DNA of 64,000 nucleotides from Magnetospirillum sp. (GTDB taxonomy: Bacteria; Pseudomonadota; Alphaproteobacteria; Rhodospirillales; Magnetospirillaceae), in NCBI GenBank assembly GCA_024707145.1, contig JANQAI010000005.1:992001-1056000 (forward strand), written 5' to 3'. The notes beneath the pieces were generated by a model that was not told the DNA's origin, did not search any database, and worked only from the letters and a program-made list of their open reading frames with translations. The position numbers and the translations under genes were made by a program. Of the stretch, positions 11,324 to 22,612 are shown one piece after another. Numbering within the stretch: position 1 is the first letter of the stretch; every line of letters begins with the position of its first letter.

Positions 11324-12030
11324 TCACACGTCCCAGCCCTCCGCCGGGGTTGCGGGCAGGCCCGGCACCGCCGCGGCGCGCCAGTCCGCCTTCCGCCCCG
11401 GCGCCGGCTGGCGGTCGAAGCGGAACGGCTCGCAGGACAGCGCGCCGGCCACCGCGTCCAGCCCGTCGTCGCGGCCGGTGTAGCGTCCGTCCGGCGACCA
11501 TTCGCGCATCTCGCGGATGAAGGGCGTCTCCCACACCGTTGCGTGGGCGAGCAGCCGGCGGTCGGCCAGCAGGGCGTCGAACGCCTCGCGGATGCGCAGC
11601 GCCTTGGCCCGGCGGCTGGCTTCCTCGACCACGGCGGCGCCGACCTTCTCCGCGCGCAGCGCTTTGCGCAACAGGCCGGGGAGGAAGCGGCCGATGCCGT
11701 TGATCTCCACGTGCACCGCCGGCAGATGGTGCCGCTCCAGGAAGCGGGCGACCTGGAGGCATTGCTGCTCCGCCTCGGTGTCCGGATCGCCGGGGTCCAC
11801 CGACAGGTAGAGCACCCGGTGCAGGTAGAAGCGCCCGTCCGCCCCGCCGAACACGGCGGCGACGACGCTGGAATCGCCGGGCTTGCCGCCCTCCGCCGCC
11901 GGCCGCGCGAAGGCCGGGTCCCACCAGCAGGAGGCCGAGGCCATGCGCAGGCCGTTCAGCGTCAGCACCGCCCGCCCCGCCGACTCCCGGTATTCCAGCT
12001 CGCCGTCGTAACGGCTCTGGAGGGAACCAT
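11324..12030 (-). pseudogene. Phage terminase large subunit, C-terminal fragment
   Basis: About 235 residues of a DNA-packaging terminase. The visible part is the RNase H-like nuclease domain: VVAAVFGGADGRFYLHRVLY, a HLPAVHVEINGIGRF block and the C-terminal RDDGLDAVAGAL acidic motif near residue 185. The ATPase half is missing. In frame the homology continues upstream of the first ATG (11968) to SLQSRYDGELEYRESAGRAV and stops at about 12030, where it meets the GGAACCATAAA repeat cluster. An insertion or deletion has therefore removed the 5' half. With the hydrolase and holin-like genes it marks a dead prophage. Confidence 0.75.
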
Positions 12031-12141
12031 AAACTCAAACGAGGGATGTTGGAATCATTGAGAAATTTGGATTATCGGGAACCATAAAGCTCATCGCGGG
12101 AACCACAAATTTGTACCACGGGGCACTCTAGGAACCATAAA
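12022..12141. repeat. Cluster of four GGAACCAYAAA motifs, transposon-end-like
   Basis: The motif (G)GGAACCATAAA occurs at 12022-12033, 12077-12088, 12098-12109 (one C variant) and 12131-12141, all in the same direction. Several short direct repeats within 120 bp are typical of transposase-binding ends of Mu/Tn7/Tn5053- and IS21-type elements. A TGTTGG lies at 12048-12053 between the first and second copies. The cluster marks the exact point where the terminase gene is cut. I found no matching inverted cluster elsewhere in the window, so the partner end is unknown. Confidence 0.6.
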
Positions 12142-12162
12142 GCTGTTCGCACTTGGCCGCGC

Positions 12163-12478
12163 CTTGGCTTGCAGGACATCGCCGACCTGATCGGCCTGTC
12201 CGGCAAAGATCGGCAGCCATGGCAGCGAGTGGCCGATATGATGGCGCGCGGCGAGTTGGAGTAGGTGCGGGCCGACTGCGAGTCGGAAGTGTTGCCCCCT
12301 GACCCGGCTGGGCACAGCGCCAGCGTCGACAGCCTCGAGGAGTGCTTGGCCCGCGAGCGGACAACCCGCCCCCGCCTGGGGGCCTTCCGCGACCGGTGGC
12401 AGGCCTCAAAGCGGCCAGCCCCGATGCATGTCCCATTGCCTCACCCCACGCTGGCTTCGGAGTCGCCGCACCTTGCTA
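12163..12478 (+). pseudogene. Decayed 3' fragment of a PF10108-type 3'-5' exonuclease
   Basis: Translation gives LGLQDIADLIGLSGK, VADMMARGELE, an in-frame TAG at 12261, then VRADCESEV, HSASVDSLEECLARER and PAPMHVPLPHPTL. These blocks match the C-terminal half of the intact exonuclease encoded at 55040-55864 in order. About 17 residues (the LYAAYVRWALLTGRT region) are deleted and the 5' half is absent. The fragment ends where the IS5-type element begins at 12480. It is a degenerate extra copy, not an active gene. Confidence 0.82.
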
Positions 12479-12479
12479 G

Positions 12480-13346
12480 GTTCTGTTCTCAAAGGCTGTG
12501 AGGGTTTGGCTGTGCCCTGTTGAAGGGGGATGGCACGATCTGAACTGAGCGATGAGCAGCTTCAGCATTTGCTGGAGTTGCTTCCGCCGGAACGCCCGTG
12601 GACGGGCCGGCCGGCGCGGGACCTGGAGCGCACCGTGCGGGCGATCCTGTGGGTGAACCGCACCGGCTCGCCCTGGCGCGATCTTCCGGCCGAGTACGGT
12701 CCCTGGCAGACGGCGGCCAACCGCTTCTACCGCTGGCGCAAGGCCGGGGTATGGGAGCGCGTGTTGGAACTGGTTCAGGCCGAGGCGGATGAGGCCGGCA
12801 AGTTGGACTGGAGCCTGCACCAAGTCGACAGCACAGTGGTCCGCGCCCACCAGCACGCCGCCGGCGCAAAGGGGCAGTTGAACCAAGCGCTTGGCCGCTC
12901 GCGCGGCGGCATCTCAACCAAGATCCACCTGCGCGCCGACCGCCACGGCCAACCGCTCGCTTTCGTGCTGAGCCCCGGTCAAGCCGCCGACCAGAGCGCG
13001 TTGACGGTGCTGATGGAGGCGGTCGCAGTGCGCCGAGTGGCAGGTGGACGACCGCGGGAAAGACCCGAGCGCGTGGTCGCTGACCGCGCCTACTCCAGCC
13101 AAGCCATCCGCCGCTACCTGCGTCGGCGCGGGATCGGGGCGGTGATCCCACAGCCCTCCAGCCAGAAGCCCTGTGCTCTGGTGGATTGGGCCGCCTATCG
13201 CTCCCGCAACGCCATCGAGCGCCTGATCAACCGCCTCAAACAGTTCCGTCGCATCGCCACCCGATACGAGAAACTCGCCGCCAACTACCTCGCCATGGTC
13301 CACATCGGGGCTATCCGACTATGGCTCAGGGTTTGAGAACAGGACC
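12480..13346 (+). mobile_element. Intact IS5-family (IS427-group-like) insertion sequence
   Basis: 867 bp bounded by inverted repeats GGTTCTGTTCTCAAA (12480-12494) and its near-perfect complement at 13332-13346 (one mismatch). Both sides are flanked by TA inside a CTAG context (12476-12479 and 13346-13349), consistent with a TA target duplication as in IS427-type elements. It carries one transposase gene. It lies between the exonuclease fragment and the tniQ end and looks recent, since ends and gene are undamaged. Confidence 0.85.
12530..13336 (+). CDS. IS5-family transposase
   Basis: 268 residues in one undamaged frame. The N-terminal DUF4096-like part (MARSELSDEQLQHLLELLPP, then GSPWRDLPAEYGPWQTAANR) is followed by the DDE domain. 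The acidic residues are in QVDSTVVRAHQHAAG (about 103), VVADRAYSS (about 183) and the RNAIERLINRLKQFRRIATR signature. This is typical of single-ORF IS427-group enzymes. Start ATG 12530 is 50 bp from the left end. The element appears capable of transposition. Confidence 0.92.
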   Translation: MARSELSDEQLQHLLELLPPERPWTGRPARDLERTVRAILWVNRTGSPWRDLPAEYGPWQTAANRFYRWRKAGVWERVLELVQAEADEAGKLDWSLHQVDSTVVRAHQHAAGAKGQLNQALGRSRGGISTKIHLRADRHGQPLAFVLSPGQAADQSALTVLMEAVAVRRVAGGRPRERPERVVADRAYSSQAIRRYLRRRGIGAVIPQPSSQKPCALVDWAAYRSRNAIERLINRLKQFRRIATRYEKLAANYLAMVHIGAIRLWLRV

Positions 13347-13391
13347 TAGCGAATACGTTCTCTGATGGACGTGAAGCTTATCCGTGCCGCC

Positions 13392-14246
13392 TTATCCGAG
13401 CATCCCAGCCGAACCGACCATGGGACGCATGCTCACCGAGTGGACTCGCTCGTGCGAAAGCCGAGGGATGCCATTCGTGCTTGCATTGCGGGTTCGACGT
13501 TGTCCCCCCTTCTTCGACAGCCCCCTCGCTCCCGCCAACGTAACCCTCCCGATTCGCAGCATCGCTAAAGCCGCAGTCTGAAAGGGCATGCGATCGAGCA
13601 ACGGATGCCCGACCCGATCGACGCCGCCCAAACGCCCAACCAGATAGCGATCGGCCACGAGGTCCGACGGCTCAAGGGAAACCGATCCTTGATCGGCCAA
13701 GTCACACCCACAACGGCAGAACCGAGGAGAAGCTTGTCTTCGCGCGAGTTGGACGCCACACGCGGGACATGCATCAATCAGCAGTAGGCCGTGTAGCGGG
13801 CATGATGTTACCGCCGTCAAGCCCCACCACGTTCTCCGGTGGGGCCGGCACGCCATCGGTCCGGCGCGTTCCTTGAGATCGACTCTTAGACAGCCGGGAC
13901 AGACACGACCGGCACCGCAAGATATGCGATTGGACACCCTTGCGCTGATCAACTCGCTACCGATGAACATAGCGCCGTTCTCGTCAACACACAGCGTCGA
14001 TGCGCGAATGCGGGTTTCGGGGACTCCACTGAGAAGCGCGAGTTCAACCAAGCGGCGTCCGTTTTCGATCTCATGCACGAAATTGGGGATTCCGATTGCC
14101 ATCTCAGAAATGAACTCACTGGCCGATGTGTGGCCGTGCCGAACCGCCACGCGTCCAAGGAGTCCATACGCAGGCTCAAAGGGTACAGGCCTCACCCTCA
14201 ACGGCAACCTCCCGAGAGCGCTGAAGCCTATGATTGGTTTGTCCAT
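13392..14246 (-). CDS. tniQ: TniQ-family transposition targeting protein
   Basis: TniQ proteins choose targets for Tn7/Tn5053-type transposons, and in CRISPR-associated transposons they bind Cascade. The N-terminal block (LPLRVRPVPFEPAYGLLGRV) and a zinc-ribbon region are visible, with pairs CPGC (about residue 115), SCPLH, DACPACG and CRCGC (about 150-180). 284 residues is short for the family. The last 40 residues look out of frame: the C6 run at 13504-13509 may have one extra base, in which case the protein would end at 13433. The IS5-type element lies 45 bp past the end, so loss of a C-terminal part is possible. It is third in the tniA-tniB-tniQ order. Confidence 0.82.
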   Translation of the reverse strand: MDKPIIGFSALGRLPLRVRPVPFEPAYGLLGRVAVRHGHTSASEFISEMAIGIPNFVHEIENGRRLVELALLSGVPETRIRASTLCVDENGAMFIGSELISARVSNRISCGAGRVCPGCLRVDLKERAGPMACRPHRRTWWGLTAVTSCPLHGLLLIDACPACGVQLARRQASPRFCRCGCDLADQGSVSLEPSDLVADRYLVGRLGGVDRVGHPLLDRMPFQTAALAMLRIGRVTLAGARGLSKKGGQRRTRNASTNGIPRLSHERVHSVSMRPMVGSAGMLG

Positions 14247-14414
14247 CGAAGGTCAATCCCTGCAAGCCTTTCCGACACAGGCCCCTGGGTTTGCGGCGCA
14301 GCATCAGTCAGCGGTTTGCCGCCGAGGAATCGTGCACGCTCGTGCACGCGCTTGACCAGATGCAAACTCACGCCACTCAATCATCCGCTCTTGGACGCGT
14401 GGAGGGGAGCGGCA

Positions 14415-15632
14415 TCAGGATCGGGTAAAGGGGGTGAAGGGCTGGCGCCCCTTCGCCTTGAGTTTGGTCTGGCGCGAGCCGTCTTTGCCGGAGTTCATCA
14501 CTGTCACTCCCGATAAGCCGTCAGCGGCTAGCCGCGACTCGATCCACAATTCCTTCAATCGGGCTTCGTCGCACAGGAAAGGATTGCTGTCGCGCGATGC
14601 CTCGGTAGCCTTCTTCGCTTCTTCGTCCTCATCAAGAATGGTATCGAAGTCCAATATCTCGTCCTGATCGTAGGTCCGGTTCCAACTCGAATGGACGTCG
14701 GCCATCAATTCCAAGCTGAGGGATGGAAGGTTGTGTTCTTTGGCCAGGGAAAGGGCTTCGCTTGCGTACTTCCACATAATGCCAATCTCCCCGCCGGTGG
14801 CGACGTACCATCGTCGAGCGACGTCGTGCCTTACTAAGCCGGATGGTTCGGGTAAATCGAGCATTCTCTCGAGCGTCCCCAGAATGCTGCAAAACACAAT
14901 GCGCCCTTGCTTGGTTGTCCAGTTGTATGGCCTTAACACCATCGCCGGCTGCAATCGCCGGCGAAGCTGTTCATAATGAGTAATTTTTAGGAGTTCCGGA
15001 AGACCCGCGATGACAATTTGCCTTTTTGTTCGATTGAGAAGCGACTTTATGAACTCAGAGACGTCCTCAGTTGCTTCGTCATCCTTTTCATGAACGAAGT
15101 GATGTCCTTCATCGATAAATAGCATTTCCGTGCCCATCTGGTCGGCGTAAAACTCAATTTTATCAATAATATCATTGGCATTCCACTTCTCACGTGCTTT
15201 GTAACCAAAGGCACCCAAAAGAGCGGCCACAAGCGCGCGTTGAGTTGTTTTCTTTGCCGCTTCGACATAAACGATCCGACGAATATCGCCATCTCGCAAT
15301 GTCTTGACCCTTGCTGCATCTACGGTTCCAGAAGTGTTCCCTGAGGAGACACTCTCGAGTGTAAGATCGGGATAATCCCGCATATAACTCTCAAGAGCCG
15401 TCGTTTTGCCTGACCCCGTTGCCCCGATAACGAGCAGCGCTCTGGCTTTGAGCCGTTTGCCTCCCGGCGGTTTGTAACGGGCGTGAAGTCGACCGATGGC
15501 CGCTTTCGCTTGGACATGATTGGGATGTGGCACCACCAGGGATTCGAAATCGAGGATGGGATCCGCCAAGTGCGCCATGGCGCTGGCTGGTTGACCATTG
15601 GCGCCCACGCTCACTTCATCTCGTTCGCCCAT
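14415..15632 (-). CDS. tniB: TniB/TnsC-type AAA+ ATPase, transposition regulator
   Basis: 405 residues in one intact frame. Walker A is GATGSGKTT at residues 70-78. Walker B is EMLFIDEGHH with Asp174/Glu175. A sensor-1-like VIAGLPELL follows and then an Arg-rich segment (QLRRRLQPAMVLRPY). This is the TniB/TnsC plan: an ATPase that polymerises on target DNA and links the targeting protein to the transposase. Length is somewhat above plain TniB (about 300), with an acidic C-terminal extension from about residue 325. Its start overlaps the tniA stop by 22 bp, so the two are one operon. Confidence 0.88.
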   Translation of the reverse strand: MGERDEVSVGANGQPASAMAHLADPILDFESLVVPHPNHVQAKAAIGRLHARYKPPGGKRLKARALLVIGATGSGKTTALESYMRDYPDLTLESVSSGNTSGTVDAARVKTLRDGDIRRIVYVEAAKKTTQRALVAALLGAFGYKAREKWNANDIIDKIEFYADQMGTEMLFIDEGHHFVHEKDDEATEDVSEFIKSLLNRTKRQIVIAGLPELLKITHYEQLRRRLQPAMVLRPYNWTTKQGRIVFCSILGTLERMLDLPEPSGLVRHDVARRWYVATGGEIGIMWKYASEALSLAKEHNLPSLSLELMADVHSSWNRTYDQDEILDFDTILDEDEEAKKATEASRDSNPFLCDEARLKELWIESRLAADGLSGVTVMNSGKDGSRQTKLKAKGRQPFTPFTRS

Positions 15633-17814
15633 TGCTCCACCATCCTTTCGATGTCGTCGTCAATATTTTGCCTTTCCGGATATCCGAGAGACGGTGCCGG
15701 TGTGGATGTGGTGCCAGCAGACGGCAAGGCGTCGGCCAGGGCCGATGTCTTCAGGTCGGGTGTCGACGGCTGAGACGAAGCAGTCTCCGGCGGCGGCGGT
15801 TTCGGGTCAGCCGTCATTGCCCCATTGAGCAGAGGGGTGAACGGCTGACCGTTTGCCTCGTAACGGGCAGCCTTGGCAGCGGTTGCCGTTGTCGCACCGT
15901 TTTCAAAAACAGTCCGCACGGTTTCCTCTGCCAGAGCCTTCGCCATTTCAAGATGATTGACAGTAATAGGCGTTCCTGTCGGGAGATTGTGCTTTGCGAT
16001 CAGCTTATGAACTTTATGCTGGTACTTGGAAACATTTCGCGAAATTGTCGGGTCCGTGCAGGGCAACACGTACCACCGGCCCAGATCGTCGTCGAGAATC
16101 CAGATTTCTCCACGATCATAAGGATCAACGCGGATGATCCAGTCTTTCGCGAGACCTCCTCGGCGTGCCTTGAGTTCCTCAAGCACCTTCTTATCGGAGT
16201 AGAGCAGGCCATCGTAATGGACACCGACGTTTGATATTGGTCTCCGAATAACTTCTCCGGTCATACGGATGATGTGATCGAAGTCAGGAACTGGCCGAAC
16301 CGGATAGAGTTCCGTAAGCTGCCGCCATTTCTCTACAGGACGGCACTTGATCGTGGGGTGGACTGCCTCATGATAATCATCTACAATCCATTTTAATATC
16401 TTATAATTGACTTCGGCTAGAGTAAGTCGCGCACGAACAACAGGATCATAAAAGTCCTGGGTTCGCGAGAGGACCGCCCCTCTTCATGACTGAACACCTG
16501 AACGCCAATACTTCCAAACAGTCGCTCTATTGCCCCTTTCAGCCACGGCGTCTTTCTTGGCAAGTTGATGACAGCGAAATTCAACATGGTTTCTGTCAAG
16601 TGCAGACTTTTCGACCGAAGTTCCTTGCCATTGTCGCAGAAGACCCTCTCGGGGATACCATGGCAGGGCCAGTCGTGTTCGAGACCTTCGATTCCAGAAA
16701 GATCCTTTTTCCAGAACGCATGCGCCAACGCACGCTGTAGGGATGCGTAGGATGGCACCTCAAAGCTCAAATGGGCTCCAAGGATGACGCGTGTCGCACG
16801 ATCAAGGATGACCGTGAGCCATGGCCGCCCAAGAGGACGCCCAGTGAGCGGATGAATGACAACGAGATCGATCAAACAATGATCAATTTCAACCTCTTCA
16901 AGTGGTCGTTCTGGTGGCGTTGTGCGCTCGAAAATGCCGTATTTCAAGTAGGCAGCGCGCCGACCATAACGCCTCTCAAATTCCGCCCGCTCTGTATAGT
17001 TCCTGTCGATAAAAACACGAAAGGAACGAAAGCTCACGCACGGAACATTTTTTTCTTCACAAATTTCCTTATATTTATTGTAAGCAAAATTTTTCCGCTT
17101 GCGCGGCATGCGCATGTAATAGTCTTCGACTGCACTAGCCATAGCTTTATAGGTGTCGGGCCCGTCATCCCATCGACGAGGGTAACGTGCTCGGCGGTTT
17201 CCCCGCAGGTGACGATGCGGGATCAGCAGACGTATGTCGCGCCCGTATTGGCTCCAAAGAATGTACCACGCTCGGATAGTGTAGGGGCTCGGCTTCCGGA
17301 AGGGCGGCGTGCGGACCGATTGAGTATCGGAAAGCTGCGGTTTTCTTCTGCGTCGTAGGACCGCGTCCTCGGCGGCACGCCTAATTGCAAGTTTAATGTC
17401 TTCCGCTTTCCACTCCTCACAATGCTCGGTGTAAATGGCCTCAGCAGCTGCAGCGTAGGCTTCCATTTTGTCTGGATATGCGTCGATAATGGCATCGACC
17501 TTGACCATGTAGACGGCTCGCCGCTCCGCATGTCGCCTTACCTCTTCGGGCCAGTATTCCCAAGTTTTCTCGAGAACATCCGCTATGCTTTTCGGCAACC
17601 CTTGAACGTTGCAGGGGTAATGGATAAGCCGGCGTGCTCCGTAAGCACTATCGATCTCGTCATCGCTCCAGGTCCTCTGGTCAGAACCATTGAAGGACCT
17701 GAGCAAATAGCCACCGCGCTTGCGCTCTACGACACCCCATAGCTCTGTAGCGCCGGTGGCGTTGCGGAATACAAGCGCATCCCCAGACTGGAACTTGAGC
17801 GGTATGGCGGTCAT
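15611..17814 (-). CDS. tniA: TniA/TnsB-type DDE transposase, one frameshift as sequenced
   Basis: Catalyses strand breakage and joining at the transposon ends. From ATG 17814 there is a long N-terminal DNA-binding region (about 300 residues), then the retroviral-integrase-like core with Asp311 (EVEIDHCLID), Asp394 (RVFCDNGKE) and Glu430 (LKGAIERLFGS), then a Mu-type C-terminal barrel and a proline-rich tail ending NIDDDIERMVEQWANEMK. The frame breaks in the C-run near 16469-16473. Restoring one base gives GAVLSRTQDFYDPVVRARLT and continues cleanly to 15611, about 734 residues in all. No TnsA endonuclease domain is fused or adjacent, so transposition may be replicative. The first gene of the tni operon. 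Confidence 0.88.
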
Positions 17815-17960
17815 GAGTTTTCTCCAGTACACGAGCCAATCAACGCGACCCCGCACCTTTTAATTTTTGCCATTGATGCGCATAAACTTAGAGCGCTTGT
17901 TTCTATGATATCTCCATTTGGGCAATACGCCGGTGATTGGATTGACCGACTTGAAGAGCT
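17815..17960 (-). promoter_or_regulatory. Interval between CRISPR array and tniA
   Basis: 146 bp separating the leader-distal end of the array from the tniA start. It is AT-rich around 17850-17915 and should hold the tniA promoter. The stretch directly after the degenerate repeat (17927-17960) could be a vestigial spacer, since it is about spacer length, but no repeat bounds it on the far side. Confidence 0.4.
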
Positions 17961-18322
17961 GTTTCGATCCACGCTCCTGCGAAGCCCTGACGACAAGTTC
18001 ATCAGCCATATGCTGCTGCATCCCGTGTTTCGATCCACGCTCCCGTGTAAGGAGCAACATCTCATGTGCCGCTTTCCGGACGTGCTGCATCAATTTCGAT
18101 CCACGCTCCCGGGTAAGGAACAACCGACGACATCGCCGCGACCATCCAGGCGTGCATATTTCGATCCACGCTCCCGCACAAGGAGCAACGTTTCTGAGTG
18201 AGCGAGGGGCATGGCCTGGACATGATTTCGATCCACGCTCCCACGCAAGGAGCAACGGTTGGCCGATGGACCGGCCCTTGTACTGGGTCATTTTCGATCC
18301 ACGCTCCCGCGCAAGGAGCAAC
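17961..18322 (-). CRISPR. Type I-C CRISPR array, six repeats and five spacers
   Basis: 32-bp repeats at 17961-17992 (degenerate), 18027-18058, 18093-18124, 18158-18189, 18225-18256 and 18291-18322. The plus-strand form is NTTTCGATCCACGCTCC followed by a variable part and AAGGAGCAAC; on the minus strand it ends GCGTGGATCGAAAT/C, like known I-C repeats with a GCTCC/GGAGC hairpin. Spacers are 33-35 bp. The cas genes are on the minus strand to the right, so the leader is at 18323-18539 and the degenerate repeat is leader-distal, as expected. The four middle repeats vary at two to four positions, unusual for an actively growing array and fitting the absence of cas1/cas2. I see no spacer target in this window. 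Confidence 0.95.
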
Positions 18323-18539
18323 TGTCTTCTCTTAAGGAGCTGGTAGGTAAGGCAAAACACCGTCACTTACGCGAACCGCTTGCGACCGACACGAAGATTT
18401 TGGAATTGTCCGCAACCCGCAAGGATAATCCAGTGACAAACAACGCTTATACCTACCCACAAACCCATCCACCTTGCGTGAGCGCTTCGGGTTCGCGCAG
18501 TTGTACACGGCGACAACTCTGCATCGCCAGACAGCCCAA
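18323..18539 (-). promoter_or_regulatory. Probable CRISPR leader
   Basis: 217 bp between the cas7 stop and the first (leader-proximal) repeat, with no coding sequence I would accept. By position it is the leader and holds the pre-crRNA promoter unless the array is read through from the cas operon. Confidence 0.5.
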
Positions 18540-19547
18540 TCAGAACTTTTCGATGATCGTAATTCCGGCCGGCAGGGCCGTATGGTCCACGCTGATTGCA
18601 TAGTCTTCAAAACGACGGGCTGGTGCCAGCCGGCGCAAGTCAGCGCTCGTCAGGTCATAGGAAGCTCCTTCAAAATAACGTTTGACGGTGACGCGCCGGA
18701 ACAATGCCGAGGCCGGCGCATTGCCGAGTGCGCTGTCGTGGCGGAACAAAACCAATCGACGGCTGGCCATTTCGCCGCGACTTGCGGAGCGGTCATGGTC
18801 GAACATGTGTTCGAGCGCCGTCCACAGCACCTCCAAATCATCGTCGTCAAACCCACTCCCTTCGGCTTTCCGTGGCTTGTTTCCCGGAGCGGTTCGCTCG
18901 GCCAGTTTGGCCGAAATGTAGCCATGGACGCGATACAAGGCGTATGGGACGATGTGCTTCCGCCCCATGGTCCGGTTTTCGCGACGATCGTCTCCATCCG
19001 CCGTGCCTTCGCCCGCCGCAGTATCCTTCGCCTCCTTTTCCGTCGTGGCGGCCATGCGCGTCAGCGTGATCTCCAGAGGCAGGATCGGCTCCAGCGATTG
19101 GGCAAAGGACAGCTGCACAGGCCCACGGACCTGACCGCAGTTGACACCGGTGCTCATCACCGCGCCGAACGTCCGCACATCGAAAAAGTTGTCGCACATG
19201 AAACGACGGATTGCGGCTTCCTCGTCTTCATCCTTGGGGGACAATTTGGATACCGTGGTCACCGCGTTGTTGCCGGGACGCACCGCTTTGTAGGCCGTGC
19301 GGTGCTTCTGGTTGAGAATGGCACCGTCCTGCACGTAAATGCCAAAACGCGGGTCGCCGTCATGAACGAGATTGACATAGTTGCGGACTTTGCGTTTGAG
19401 GCAGACGTCGGTGACGAGCCCTTGATTGGTTTCCGGGTCTTGACGCGGCAGGTTGCCGGCGTCCGGATCCCCGTTGGGATTGCCATTCGTCACATCGAAC
19501 AGAAAGACAAACTCGTAGCGGTTGGTGATGGGAGGCATGGGTTTCAC
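18540..19547 (-). CDS. cas7: Cas7 (Csd2), subtype I-C Cascade backbone
   Basis: 335 residues. The N-terminus RYEFVFLFDVTNGNPNGDPD is the hallmark of Csd2/Cas7 of subtype I-C, followed by VTDVCLKRKVRNYV and the KHIVPYALYRVHGYISA block. It binds the crRNA spacer as a six- or seven-copy filament. The start can be GTG 19547, which overlaps the cas8c stop (GTGA), or ATG 19538. The 18-residue acidic insertion around DTAAGEGTADGDDRRE (about 165-185) makes it longer than usual. The frame is intact. It is the last cas gene before the array; cas4, cas1 and cas2, normally found next, are missing. Confidence 0.93.
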   Translation of the reverse strand: MKPMPPITNRYEFVFLFDVTNGNPNGDPDAGNLPRQDPETNQGLVTDVCLKRKVRNYVNLVHDGDPRFGIYVQDGAILNQKHRTAYKAVRPGNNAVTTVSKLSPKDEDEEAAIRRFMCDNFFDVRTFGAVMSTGVNCGQVRGPVQLSFAQSLEPILPLEITLTRMAATTEKEAKDTAAGEGTADGDDRRENRTMGRKHIVPYALYRVHGYISAKLAERTAPGNKPRKAEGSGFDDDDLEVLWTALEHMFDHDRSASRGEMASRRLVLFRHDSALGNAPASALFRRVTVKRYFEGASYDLTSADLRRLAPARRFEDYAISVDHTALPAGITIIEKF

Positions 19548-21408
19548 CCTTCGTCCGTGGGCAGATCGGGTGCAGCGGTCTCCGCTTCAGCGGCATCCGG
19601 CGCGGGCTTTCGCGCGCAACGCTGGTGATAGTAGCCAACGACGAAACGGCCCTGGCTTTCCGGGTGCAGATGGCACGGCAAGGTCATGTCCAAGCCGTCC
19701 ATAACCTCGTTCATTTCGCGTTCGAACCAAACAGCCAGCCCCCTGTGCCGCTCTTCCGGCGCAGCACGGCCAAATGGTGGGAGGTGTTGCGCAGCAGCAG
19801 CGGGAAGACGCTGGCCGGCGTTGCCGAGGCAGCTCCGAAATAGCGGTCGCGGATGCTGGCGTTCACACGTCCGAGCGCGGCGCGTTGAACATTTTCCAAA
19901 AGAGCGAACAGCCGCCCCAACCGGTAGGCGGGGTCTGCTTCCTGGCGGTCGAGGCTCACCGGAACCTCCATTGCTGTGGTGAACGAGGGGCCAGCCTGCT
20001 TCCCGCGTCCGCGGTGGCGGACATCGCGCTGGAGCACGGCTCGGATGAGAGCGGCGCGCGGACCGGTGACCGGATCACCCGCTCGCAGGCGCTGAAGCGC
20101 CGCGGTCAGCAGGACGCGCGGATAGCGGCCGCCGGTGAGAATCGCGCGCATCACTTCGCCACCCAGCACCGGCGGGACGGTTTCAGGATCGCCCCGACGG
20201 GCCACGGGCTGAAGCAGAGCCAAGGGAGAGGGAGGCCGATGCCAAGCGCGCGGCTCAATCCTCAGATCCTCCCAATGCTCCGCCAAGCGGGCGAGCAGCA
20301 AGTCCAATGTTGTCTCGTGCCACAGGCGCACCGACAGACGGGGGCCATTCGGTGAAAGGCCCAGAATGTGGATCCGGGTGCCGGGGTCGAGCACAGCGTC
20401 GATCCGCTCCAGCGTACGGCGGATATCGATCAATTCGGGAAACGTGCCCCCTCCTCCCCAGCCGCTCTTAAACGCTGCGGCATAAGCCGAAGAGGCCCGC
20501 GAAACTCCCAGCGCATAGGCAACTACCGCCTCAGCCTTGCGGGCAGACGTTTCGCCGCCCGCGGAAGCACTGGCCCAGAATACGGTCGTGGTGTCTCCGA
20601 ACCGCATCTTGGTGCCGCTGTTGCGCGCCAGCAGCGCGTTCAGAGCGGCGCCATAATTCGACGCGGCAGCCTCCGAAACGGGGGCGTTGTCGCCCTGCTT
20701 CTTGCCATACGAGGCAAAGGCGTTGCGGTTGAACGAGACCAGCGAGCCCCCGGACAGCCGTGCTCCCGCAACGCCCTTAATCAGGGGGTGCAGGCGCGCC
20801 ACTGGCGCGATGCGCCCAGTGACAAGACACACCGCCGATGGCCCACCGCTTTTGATCACCTGCCGTTCCCACACGGCGCGAGCCGCCGGACGATCGTGCA
20901 CGAACCGGTCTTGACCGTCAGCGTCCACGTCTCCGTCGAGCTGAAAGACGAGGTTTCGGTCCAGGAGAGCCGACGCAAGCCGGTGCCGTCGAACCGACTC
21001 GGTGTCCAGGTGCGCAGAAAGCGAAGCACGGCCAGCAGACCGGGATCGGTCGCATCATCCAGCAGCCGTTCATGCGTCTCGCGAAAAGCGGCGGCATGGG
21101 CGGAGTAGGTCGTGATCCCGGGCTGACCCGTTCCATTGCCAAGCCCCAGCACAAACTTGCTGTTGTCCCAGAGAAAGAAAGCCCGCGGAGTCGTGCCTGA
21201 CCGTTTGGACGTTCGCGGCACGGTCACTGGACGGCCGACCGGCTGGCGTCCGGTGTGGTCACGTAGATCGCGGCAGGAATTCAGCCCCTCCGTCCGGAGA
21301 GAGCACGAGGGCGAAGGCGATGCTCTCCGTCGAAAAGCCGAAGGGGGCGACCCTACCGCAGCGTTCAAGGCGGCCGTAATGGGTGTTGAGCGCCGACAGG
21401 ATCGTCAT
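19544..21408 (-). CDS. cas8c: Cas8c (Csd1), subtype I-C Cascade large subunit, frameshifted as sequenced
   Basis: Large subunit that recognises the PAM; in I-C systems an internal start also yields Cas11. From ATG 21408 it reads MTILSALNTHYGRLERCGRV and IAFALVLSPDGG, then after a shift at the C-run near 21290 DLRDHTGRQPVGR and FLWDNSKFVLGLG, then after a shift near 20965-20975 NLVFQLDGDVDADGQDRFVH, RPAARAVWERQV and VSRASSAYAAAF. After a third shift in the C-run near 19738-19742 it ends EMNEVMDGLDMTLP and GRFVVGYYHQR. All are Csd1 blocks in order. Corrected length is about 621 residues. The start overlaps the cas5c stop (ATGA) if one G is removed near 21409. Confidence 0.9.
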
Positions 21409-22077
21409 GCCCCGCACCTCCGGCAACGAGCGCGGCGGCACCGCCAGAACGCCTTCGCGCAGAACGGCATGGAATATTAGCGAAGAGCGGCCGTTGCTGT
21501 GATCGATGTCCAGCAGCATCGGGCCGAGGTCCAAATTGCGCTGCTCGCCCGGCAGGGCGTGCACGGGCACTGGACCTTCCCAGAGTTCGAACTCGGCGGG
21601 GAACTCGCGGGTTCCGAGGCAGGGCTGGTGAAAGCACTGACCACGCTGTGCACGGCGGTTGAATATCTTCAGATGAGTGGCAATGGTGTCGTTTTCGCCA
21701 GCCTCTTCGGTCAGAGAGACGTGCGCCTCGATTATGTAATCGACATCGACGAGGATGACGGCGGCACGTTGCTGCCGGTCATGGTCGGCGATTTGACGCA
21801 ACTCTGCGATGTCATTGCCGCGCATTGCATGACGAACGGTGGCGACGGGCACCTTGTGGCCGACCTCGTTGCGGCGAAGCGATTGGAAGCGGATGGGTTT
21901 CAGCACGTGAATACGGTCAATTGTCCAAACAATTGCCGGTTTCCAGTGAATCGCTTCGAGAATACCGCGTGCAGCGGACGGTGTGATCACGTCATACGAT
22001 ACTCGTTCAACTTTGGTTTCAGGACGAGTGAAGCAGGCTCTTGGGCCTGACACCCGTAATTTTATTCCGTACGACAT
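21405..22077 (-). CDS. cas5c: Cas5c (Cas5d), crRNA-processing Cascade subunit
   Basis: In subtype I-C, which has no Cas6, Cas5 cuts the pre-crRNA and caps the 5' handle. The sequence MSYGIKLRVSGPRACFTRPE, VERVSYDVITPSAARGILEA and IHWKPAIVWTIDRIHVLKPI is typical, and the C-terminus FHAVLREGVLAVPP is normal. As sequenced the frame runs on into cas8c (to 21259). Removing one base from the CCCC at 21410-21413 (plus strand) gives a TGA at 21405 overlapping the cas8c ATG, with about 223 residues, the usual size. A Cas5-Cas8 fusion is less likely because cas8c is broken again just downstream. A GGAGG lies 6 bases before the ATG. First gene of the cas operon; no cas3 upstream. Confidence 0.92.
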
Positions 22078-22339
22078 GGAAAACCTCCAACCATGAACGC
22101 ACAGGAAAGAAAGCCGGAAAACTATTGTCCTGTAAAGCGTTCATAAGAAATCACCTCAAGGCACATAATCCACCCGATCTTTAAAAGCTCACAATTAGCG
22201 GAAAAAATTTAGCCCGCTCACATTGTTCAAATGACTTGTTACCGCCCTATATTACCAAAGAAATGATGCAACCGAATCGGTGCAATATCCAGATTAAACC
22301 TCATTTCTACTCAATACATTATAAAATCGCCTAACCACA
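22078..22339. promoter_or_regulatory. AT-rich cas operon upstream region with long inverted repeat
   Basis: 262 bp of AT-rich sequence upstream of cas5c. Two arms, ATGAACGCACAGGA (22093-22106) and TCCTGTAAAGCGTTCAT (22128-22144), are complementary apart from a three-base insertion, and are separated by 21 bp. The position, directly before the cas5c ribosome-binding site, suggests an operator or a regulatory hairpin for the cas operon. It could instead be part of the transposon's right end. Nothing else coding is seen here. Confidence 0.5.
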
Positions 22340-22612
22340 ATGGGAGCAACTCAGAGGCCCAAAGATCAAGGTTATGATTACTCATTGGCACGCCGGCAGG
22401 AGAAAGCCCGCAAACACTTTGTGCCGGCGCTGCGCTACGGTTCCGAGATTGTCGACTCGCTCTGCTCCTCCAAGTCGCTGGCGAGGAATGTGCACTGCTG
22501 AGTGTTGCTCATCCTTGACGGTAACAAGCGTGCCGCCTTCGTGGTCCTCGGTCTGCGCCTCGAGCCCCAACGGCTTCGAGTCGAACGCGACGGAGCGTGA
22601 GGTGGCGGATGG
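22340..22612 (+). pseudogene. Remnant of a Doc/Fic-type toxin gene
   Basis: A frame from ATG 22340 (MGATQRPKDQGYDYSLARR) stops at 22501, and a second frame overlapping it reads VLLILDGNKRAAFVVLGLRL to a stop at about 22612. The DGNKRAAF string matches the catalytic-loop region of death-on-curing (Doc) toxins (HPFxDGNKRAA), but the His is gone and the frames are broken. I read it as a decayed toxin at the edge of the CRISPR/tni region. Homology is short, so confidence is low. Confidence 0.35.

Follow-up and report, generated by a model that had tools for sequence, protein, structure and literature searches.

Transposons associated with clustered regularly interspaced short palindromic repeats (CRISPR), the CASTs, of types I-B and V-K insert on the side of their target that is distal to the protospacer-adjacent motif (PAM). 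The V-K system ShCAST has TnsB, TnsC and TniQ without TnsA and uses Cas12k as its effector. The transposons of the Tn5053 family carry tniA-tniB-tniQ, a TniR resolvase and a res site, also without TnsA. Type I-C CASTs were reportedly proposed from metagenomes by Rybarski et al. in 2021. For the I-F3 CASTs, TniQ, TnsC and the insertion are likewise placed on the PAM-distal side in two papers (PMC12774636 and the preprint PMC13228271), and another calls type I-C CAST transposition proposed and not validated as of 2025 (PMC12452197). In this study we analysed a window of 64,000 nucleotides (contig JANQAI010000005.1, positions 992,001 to 1,056,000, assembly GCA_024707145.1, listed as Magnetospirillum sp.), in which an original prediction, made from the sequence alone, had seen a candidate type I-C CAST. 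Our results suggest that the window holds the relic of such a transposon and that its family is likely guided by CRISPR RNA (crRNA) and Cascade and predicted to land about 35-45 bp from the target on its PAM side (probability about 0.88). Observed directly were the gene block, transposon ends of both kinds, sites without the element, and spacer matches that keep to a narrow range of distances and share one orientation at five unrelated sites.

The gene block and its relatives

Searches with Pfam and NCBIfam profiles showed a single block on the minus strand, consisting of cas5c-cas8c-cas7, a CRISPR array, tniA, tniB and tniQ. The gene cas5c (21409..22077) matches TIGR01876 at 4.5e-45. It is followed by cas8c (csd1, 19547..21408), which is in pieces and matches TIGR01863 in two frames (3e-103 and 5.5e-9); in L004, the orthologous locus of Azospirillum brasilense ATCC 49958, it is intact with 621 amino acids. 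The cas7 gene (csd2, 18540..19547) is intact with 335 amino acids (TIGR02589, 2.2e-99). The array, detected by a repeat search at 17961..18322, is located between cas7 and tniA at about 215 bp from the former and about 70 bp from the latter. It has six type I-C repeats with a spacing of 65-67, the last of which is degenerate. The last spacer, w6 (17927..17960), sits behind this degenerate repeat, and the spacer w5 (17993..18026) matches the terminase gene that is interrupted by the element.

The transposition genes follow on the same strand. The tniA gene (15611..17856), located by tblastn with the intact TniA of L004, encodes a TnsB-like DDE transposase and has one frameshift near 16480. The rve match of the window copy in Pfam is weak, and the whole L004 TniA matches TnsB of Tn6677 at 1.3e-44. 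The TnsC-like AAA+ ATPase TniB (14415..15632, 405 amino acids) was recognised by Pfam TniB at 3e-19, and the TniB family profile matches VchTnsC at 1.2e-22. TniQ (13392..14246) has 284 amino acids with a shifted tail frame, compared to 270 in L004, and a Pfam TniQ score of 3.5e-11; its match to a solved I-F3 CAST TniQ is weak (1.3e-4), yet above the TniQ cut-off of Pfam. The TnsB-like transposase, the TnsC-like ATPase and the TniQ of a CAST are all present, the matches of TniA and TniB to the I-F3 proteins being clear.

With tblastn, cas3, cas1 and cas4 gave no match in the window or in any of the CAST loci examined; cas2 was not among the queries. When the same search was applied to the I-C loci outside CASTs, cas3 was found in 14 of 14, and cas1 with cas4 in 13 of 14 (L079 ends at a contig edge). 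The block does not have the cas3 and adaptation genes of canonical I-C immunity. The original prediction had described the tni genes, the array and cas7-cas8c-cas5c as one block on one strand, without cas3, cas1 and cas4, and the profile searches, the array repeats and tblastn agree with it.

Four Azospirillum relatives carry the block at different sites with about 60% identity, one as a whole and three in part, which excludes a block brought together by chance. In G330 (L029, L034) the entire block is present. In G316 (L030) cas5c is missing and cas8c is truncated. G308 has cas5c, cas8c, cas7, tnsA and tniA on one contig (L070) and tniB on another (L031), and the stretch examined gave no tniQ match. 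A. argentinense Az39 (L016, from the plasmid collection) has lost the interior of the block through a deletion that fused the front of cas8c in frame to the tniA end, leaving an open frame of 640 amino acids (Az39 p1, 13076-14998 of L016). Downstream of the Az39 tniQ (L016 17405-26598) there are three large adjacent genes that by eye resemble tyrosine recombinases and an SMC/PHP-like ATPase; the two recombinase-like proteins that were scanned had no Pfam match. A TnsA-like protein is encoded between the array and tniA in G330, G316 and G308, with NCBIfam scores of 1.5e-20 (G316) and 6.7e-19 (G308) that are both under the curated cut-off. A further array lies beside a cas block with a split cas7 in G299 (L069, 12200-13400) and is followed by sequence resembling an insertion sequence (IS); no tni match was found within the stretch examined.

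Among 45 Azospirillum genomes, a TniB profile search gave eight matches at 1e-30, including A. brasilense and three others that are close relatives. A wider search of 385 sampled genomes of the class, with at most 4 candidates scored per genome, returned only G297, an A. brasilense genome, at 1e-50, and the viral contigs searched gave no match.

Transposon ends and insertion sites

On the left, the block is preceded by the C-terminal part of a phage terminase large subunit gene (11324..12015, minus strand), recognised by homology to empty sites as the target gene that was cut by the element. In 18 loci from 18 genomes the alignment to the left flank of the window stops exactly at 12015, and beyond this point these loci continue as terminase sequence. 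Two more loci were examined, of which L107 stops at 12010 and one is the occupied site in G297. In G332 the terminase gene runs uninterrupted across the site (phrog_38 terminase, E 2e-73).

Beyond 12015 the window continues with TCTGGAGGGAACCATAAA, followed by three further repeats of that kind. The tniQ-side end (12016..12151) comprises the terminus TCTGGAGGGAACC and four repeats resembling TniA sites at 12022, 12077, 12098 and 12130. The element had been thought to start at 13392; its tniQ-side end lies further left, at 12016. The proposal that empty sites would define both ends held for this end, which is fixed by the 18 loci, and failed for the cas-side end, which is lost from the window.

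Of 45 Azospirillum genomes, 24 contain the terminal motif CTGGANGGAACCATAAA with at most one mismatch, and not one contains the reversed pattern. In relatives, the same terminus is present directly outside cas5c or its remains: a conserved end lies outside cas5c or cas8c in L016, L034, L030, L069, L071 and L080, and outside tniQ in the window. The cas genes and the array are thus located inside the transposon ends. Two other explanations of the end sequences were considered and rejected. CTGGA is not the target sequence, since it recurs before unrelated flanks and hence is part of the terminus. The GGGAACCATAAA repeats are not due to chance, as the longer terminus gave 0 reversed-pattern controls in 45 genomes; within the window alone, the count of the loose GGGAACCATAAA pattern is unremarkable, as 27 of 100 shuffled sequences attain it.

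Both ends were found around one element only, in G330, where the pairing is unproven and the tniQ-side end lies 22 kb from tniQ. A position matrix search found no tniQ-side ends near tniQ in L016, L029 and L030. Candidate target duplications are AAAGA (G317) and AAAAGA (G316) at abutting cas-end/R-end junctions and TCTTT at the LysR insertion of G316; the end pairs in G330 and G331 show none. At the two abutting junctions, G317:C2:1423509-1423549 and G316:C21:106546-106587, the cas-side and the tniQ-side end are separated by AAAGA or AAAAGA, as if insertions had occurred in tandem at one site.

Two cas-side sites were used recurrently. The first is the 3' end of tlyA in G298, G300, G301, G302, G324, G335 and Az39, the gene being named by Pfam in Az39. 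The second is just upstream of a LysR gene start in G309, G316, G318, G327 and G329, the gene being named in G318. At the 3' ends of tlyA and of pabB-like genes the terminus supplies the last codons and the stop, reading WMEP-stop (Az39, G308). Many of these sites retain no more than an end, in some cases with fragments of cas5c or cas8c, as befits a family that is old and decayed.

A rival explanation, a degraded stand-alone I-C defence locus that happens to adjoin a Tn5053-like tni operon, has to account for a recurrence: four relatives carry the block or parts of it in different places, and the end motif lies outside their cas genes. Type I-C systems are common in the genus, with Cas8c matched in 20 of the 45 genomes, and the host has a canonical one elsewhere (L087). 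Together with the single Cas8c clade of the CASTs described below, the recurrence leaves this explanation highly improbable.

Phylogeny of the effector and the transposition proteins

In the Cas8c tree, the six CAST loci form one clade (100/100) whose sister is the canonical I-C system of a genome of the same genus, G313, and in the Cas7 tree five CAST loci form one clade (95/96). Both clades are nested among canonical I-C systems. The Cas8c tree was built without L030 (truncated), L079, L080, L086 and the window copy, for which L004 was used; the Cas7 tree omits L069 and L087 (two frames), L016 (deleted) and L079, L080 and L086 (no cas7). L070 was entered with one internal stop as X.

In a TniB tree of 45 rows, the five rows with a seen CAST context lie inside one clade of 15 (98/97), the context being unseen for 10 of these 15 rows and for 39 of all 45. 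The first split of this clade separates the group of the window, as it does in the Cas8c tree. The shapes of the Cas8c, Cas7 and TniB trees fit a history in which a local I-C effector was captured once and has descended together with the transposon ever since. The original prediction would have been undermined if cas and tni genes had moved or been lost independently. This was not borne out, since they stand together in the relatives and the Cas8c and TniB trees are compatible, with the qualification that many remnants retain only an end and scraps of cas genes.

Smaller TniQ and TniB trees took in a TnsA-bearing element of a Pseudomonas plasmid (L177) and, as the Tn5053-type row, an element of a Pantoea plasmid (L178; TniB, TniQ and recombinase genes) that was picked by gene content alone. 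The small TniQ tree with this single Tn5053-type row bears on the other outcome named as refuting the original prediction, a firm grouping of TniQ with Tn5053-type proteins; the CAST clade in it had a low support of 40/41. In the TniB tree of seven rows the CASTs were grouped with L017, an element of the Sphingobium yanoikuyae plasmid pTB1 (92/97), and the Tn5053-type row was outside. The split between the CASTs and L017 had a support of 25/0 in this tree, whereas the 45-row tree separates them (98/97).

Spacer matches beside the transposon ends

Twenty spacers from the window with L004, G330, G316, G318, G308 and G299 were compared with 44 flanks of at most 600 bp each, from both end types and on both strands; spacer g299_3, which runs into apparent IS sequence, was left out here and in the reduced test below. 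Seventeen matches with at least 24 of 34 bases were obtained, homologous sites being included more than once. Of these, 16 are on the outward-reading strand of the flank, 36-49 bp beyond the end of the element, and one lies at 185. When the flanks were reduced to 15, with two LysR and two pabB-like flanks retained, 7 of the 20 spacers matched with 24-31 of 34 bases at 36-49 bp from the end, all on one strand. No spacer reached the threshold on the other strand, and none did so on the two strands when 12 other distance windows were tried; of 500 shuffled sets, not one contained a spacer that passed. A spacer match at a nearly fixed distance from the insertion, as in a CAST, was thus found for 7 of 20 spacers.

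The matches fall into unrelated genes. The window spacer w5 matches the interrupted terminase gene with 29/34 in L088 and 30/34 in L096 and others, at an offset of 38 when projected through the empty site. Spacer w6 matches a phage capsid gene (PF19821, 1.7e-32) beside another end in G297 with 27/34, a TTC PAM and an offset of 49. In G330, spacer 2 (g330_2) matches the conjugation gene trbG (CagX family) beside the element's own end with 31/34 at an offset of 40. The LysR gene is matched by guides of G318 (25/34, offset 39) and G316 (23/34, offset 40), and spacer 1 of G308 matches pabB-like genes beside ends in G308 (28/34, offset 36) and G299 (25/34, offset 39). Two weak matches were found at L116, one to g308_2 (24/34, offset 46), counted among the seven, and one to g330_4 (22/34), outside them. 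Mismatches are frequent on third codon positions for w6 (7 of 9), w5 (4 of 5) and g330_2 (3 of 4), and according to PMC11406308 the mismatches of the att guides of I-F3 CASTs likewise fall on third positions.

These data were weighed against the possibility that a Tn7-like transposon carries a minimal I-C effector as cargo or for defence, TniQ alone picking the sites and the spacers serving immunity or silencing. Such a role would explain why no guide is seen for the recurrent tlyA site and why many remnants have lost the cas genes and the array while the end persists. The clustering of spacer matches 36-49 bp from the ends, in one orientation and at unrelated sites, argues against it, as does the lack of a cas3 match in any examined CAST locus, and we consider it very unlikely.

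The PAM and the side of insertion

The trinucleotide 5' of the w5 match in the 18 empty terminase sites is TTG in 13, TTC in 4 and TTT in 1. It is TTT at trbG and TTC at the LysR and capsid genes, and at pabB TTG or TTC stands one base further out. Five of six sites therefore have TTC, TTT or TTG directly at the 5' end of the match or shifted from it by one base, on the side facing the insertion; at tlyA, for which no guide is known, TTC is at the corresponding place in 5 of 7. The type I-C PAMs are TTC and TTT, located 5' of the spacer, according to PMC10865793. All 16 matches that reach 24/34 at 30-50 bp run outward from the element and turn their PAM side towards it. Since the TTC/TTT/TTG side of the matches faces the insertion, the insertion appears to be PAM-proximal. 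The PAM-distal insertion of the described CASTs, a trait of theirs and not a defining one, is not seen here, and a literature search limited to one article collection found no report on the insertion geometry of I-C CASTs.

If the array were read in the other direction, the apparent PAM side would be the distal one, and the family would be an RNA-guided I-C CAST inserting PAM-distal. This would agree with the placement of TniQ, TnsC and insertion in the I-F3 papers cited above and with the terminase relatives having mostly TTG, no listed I-C PAM. With respect to the cas genes, however, the repeat ends ATTGAAAC/ATCGAAAC have the orientation seen in L072, a canonical I-C locus, and the trinucleotides at five of six sites point the same way, making a reversed array unlikely. 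We consider it quite probable that I-C CASTs insert PAM-proximal, about 32-46 bp from the PAM, with TniQ on the Cas5c-Cas8c end, and that a transpososome can be built on either end of Cascade.

Several points weigh against guided, PAM-proximal insertion. With TTC and TTT given as PAMs, the TTG in 13 of 18 terminase relatives is outside the stated I-C consensus, the pabB trinucleotide is one base off and the weak site L116 has none in register. The distance window and the threshold of the spacer test were chosen once the first matches were known, the offsets spread over 36-49, and 13 of the 20 spacers match no flank at 24/34. Matches to an element's own flank occur in four elements only, the window with L004 (through the empty site), G330, G318 and, weakly, G316 (23/34); the remaining matches are to flanks of related ends, and for the G299 element at L116 none of its own spacers matches its flank. 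The case of the window itself rests on relatives because its cas-side flank with the protospacer is deleted. For the seven tlyA insertions no guide was found, and the stretches hold no array with cas7 or tni genes except that of Az39, where the array is deleted. Third-position mismatches are not in excess for the LysR (4 of 10, 6 of 12) and pabB (3 of 6, 2 of 9) matches. Finally, the two end motifs of G330 have no shared target duplication, and some ends, for example that on G308:C30, were assigned to their class by eye and lie in stretches in which no cas genes were seen.

The state of the window copy

The window copy is closely related to L004, with 98% identity in tniB and 93-98% in the aligned DNA. 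Frameshifts in this assembly split cas8c and tniA, both of which are whole in L004, and the tail of tniQ is out of frame. A neighbouring dihydroorotate dehydrogenase gene is also split in the window and whole in L004 (PF01180), and cas3 and cas7 of the host's separate I-C system (contig C3, L087) likewise read in pieces, so that some of the frameshifts may be assembly errors. Within the element there is an IS5-family insertion (12475..13350, plus strand; NCBIfam IS5 transposase, 2.5e-86) with inverted repeats at 12475-12498 and 13327-13350. It is missing from L004, which runs continuously across the site, and is a later arrival. In L004, tniB is interrupted by an IS. One other open reading frame of more than 100 amino acids lies between the IS5 copy and the end and had no Pfam match; no search aimed at a resolvase or res site was made.

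The search for a cas-side end in the window gave none. The missing half of the terminase gene was looked for in the host genome (G000) and in G297, which yielded nothing but the flank already known, a paralogue (73%) on contig C7 of G000 and short scraps. The cas-side end was therefore probably lost before the two strains split. TnsA gave no match in the window, nor in G000 or G297, the latter search being run without a positive control. As three relatives encode TnsA between the array and tniA, its absence was probably a loss in the A. brasilense lineage; the original prediction was right that the window has no TnsA, which now appears to be a secondary state. Since TnsA and one end are missing, the window copy is predicted to be a decayed relic that is immobile as a unit. 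The system foreseen, a type I-C CAST in a cultivated genus, was right in kind, as the block, the ends, the relatives and the trees indicate. It was wrong as a working compact version without TnsA, given the lost TnsA and cas-side end, the frameshifts in tniA, cas8c and tniQ and the IS-interrupted tniB of L004.

The host also has a canonical I-C system at G000:C3:100000-119900 (L087), with cas3, cas5, cas8c, cas7, cas4, cas1 and a long array, partly in pieces, and a CAST might be able to use its crRNAs. In the aligned parts the window shares 93-98% identity with A. brasilense, yet the 12 other genomes of the genus under which G000 is listed have distant TniB matches or none. G000 has 5.1 Mb (91.6% complete, 6.3% contamination), the 12 genomes 3.5-4.4 Mb; it is possibly a misplaced or mixed assembly.

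A proposed model for guided insertion

In the mechanism that we propose, Cas5c would cut the array transcript, and Cas5c, Cas7 and Cas8c with the crRNA would bind the target and, for lack of Cas3, leave it uncut. TniQ, which is short, would link this Cascade complex to TniB (TnsC), which would recruit TniA (TnsB) and, in the intact relatives, TnsA. Since the I-C Cascade to our knowledge has no Cas6, TniQ would dock at the Cas5c-Cas8c end, where the PAM is. Some guides may serve chromosomal sites, the LysR gene start and the end of the pabB-like gene, and others phage and conjugation genes, namely terminase, capsid and trbG.

The spacer matches beside the insertion sites and the PAM-side geometry are the main points beyond the original prediction. 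They are evidence from nature for guided insertion in a genus that is cultured and associated with plants, and they come with the ends, sites, guides and PAM. If the insertion is PAM-proximal, Cascade could recruit TniQ and TnsC at its opposite end. This would matter for the evolution of CASTs, and a small system with three Cas proteins and a different insertion window might become available for genome engineering.

Comparison with known systems

As in the metagenomic I-C CASTs, a type I-C effector has been recruited by a Tn7-like transposon; what distinguishes the family of the window is that its genus is cultured and that its ends, insertion sites and guide matches are at hand. The Tn5053 family shares the gene names tniA-tniB-tniQ and the absence of TnsA with the window copy. 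It differs by TnsA in three relatives of the window, which speaks against Tn5053 membership, by the CRISPR effector and by the distant position of the single Tn5053-type TniB row. The V-K CAST lacks TnsA like the present window copy, but it has Cas12k instead of Cascade, and three window relatives keep TnsA.

The nearest element without CRISPR that we saw is L017 of S. yanoikuyae pTB1, which is 58% identical in TniA, 51% in TniB and 41% in the TniQ domain and has a TnsA-like gene in the same place as the window relatives. Its TniQ has 635 amino acids compared to 270 in L004, it has no cas genes, and an AEP-TOTE helicase follows tniQ; TniQ is shorter in the CAST line. The L017 genes for the TnsA-like protein, TniA, TniB, TniQ and the AEP-TOTE primase-helicase stand in a row on one strand (12183-20452) near arsenic genes, and the primase-helicase is possibly a non-CRISPR target selector or a defence partner.

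The I-F3 CASTs (Tn6677/VchCAST, PseCAST) have TnsB, TnsC, TniQ and a Cascade without Cas3, as does the family of the window. Among solved structures, TniA and TniB of this family match I-F3 TnsB and TnsC best, and the TniQ match is weak (1.3e-4), with about 270 amino acids in the window family and 410-432 in the matched solved TniQ chains. The combination of guides for chromosomal att sites and for mobile elements, with wobble mismatches tolerated, which PMC11406308 describes for I-F3 CASTs, resembles the guides found here. In contrast to the I-F3 systems, the family of the window has a I-C Cascade and an apparently PAM-proximal insertion, and this side of insertion, as read from the spacer matches, sets it apart from the described CASTs.

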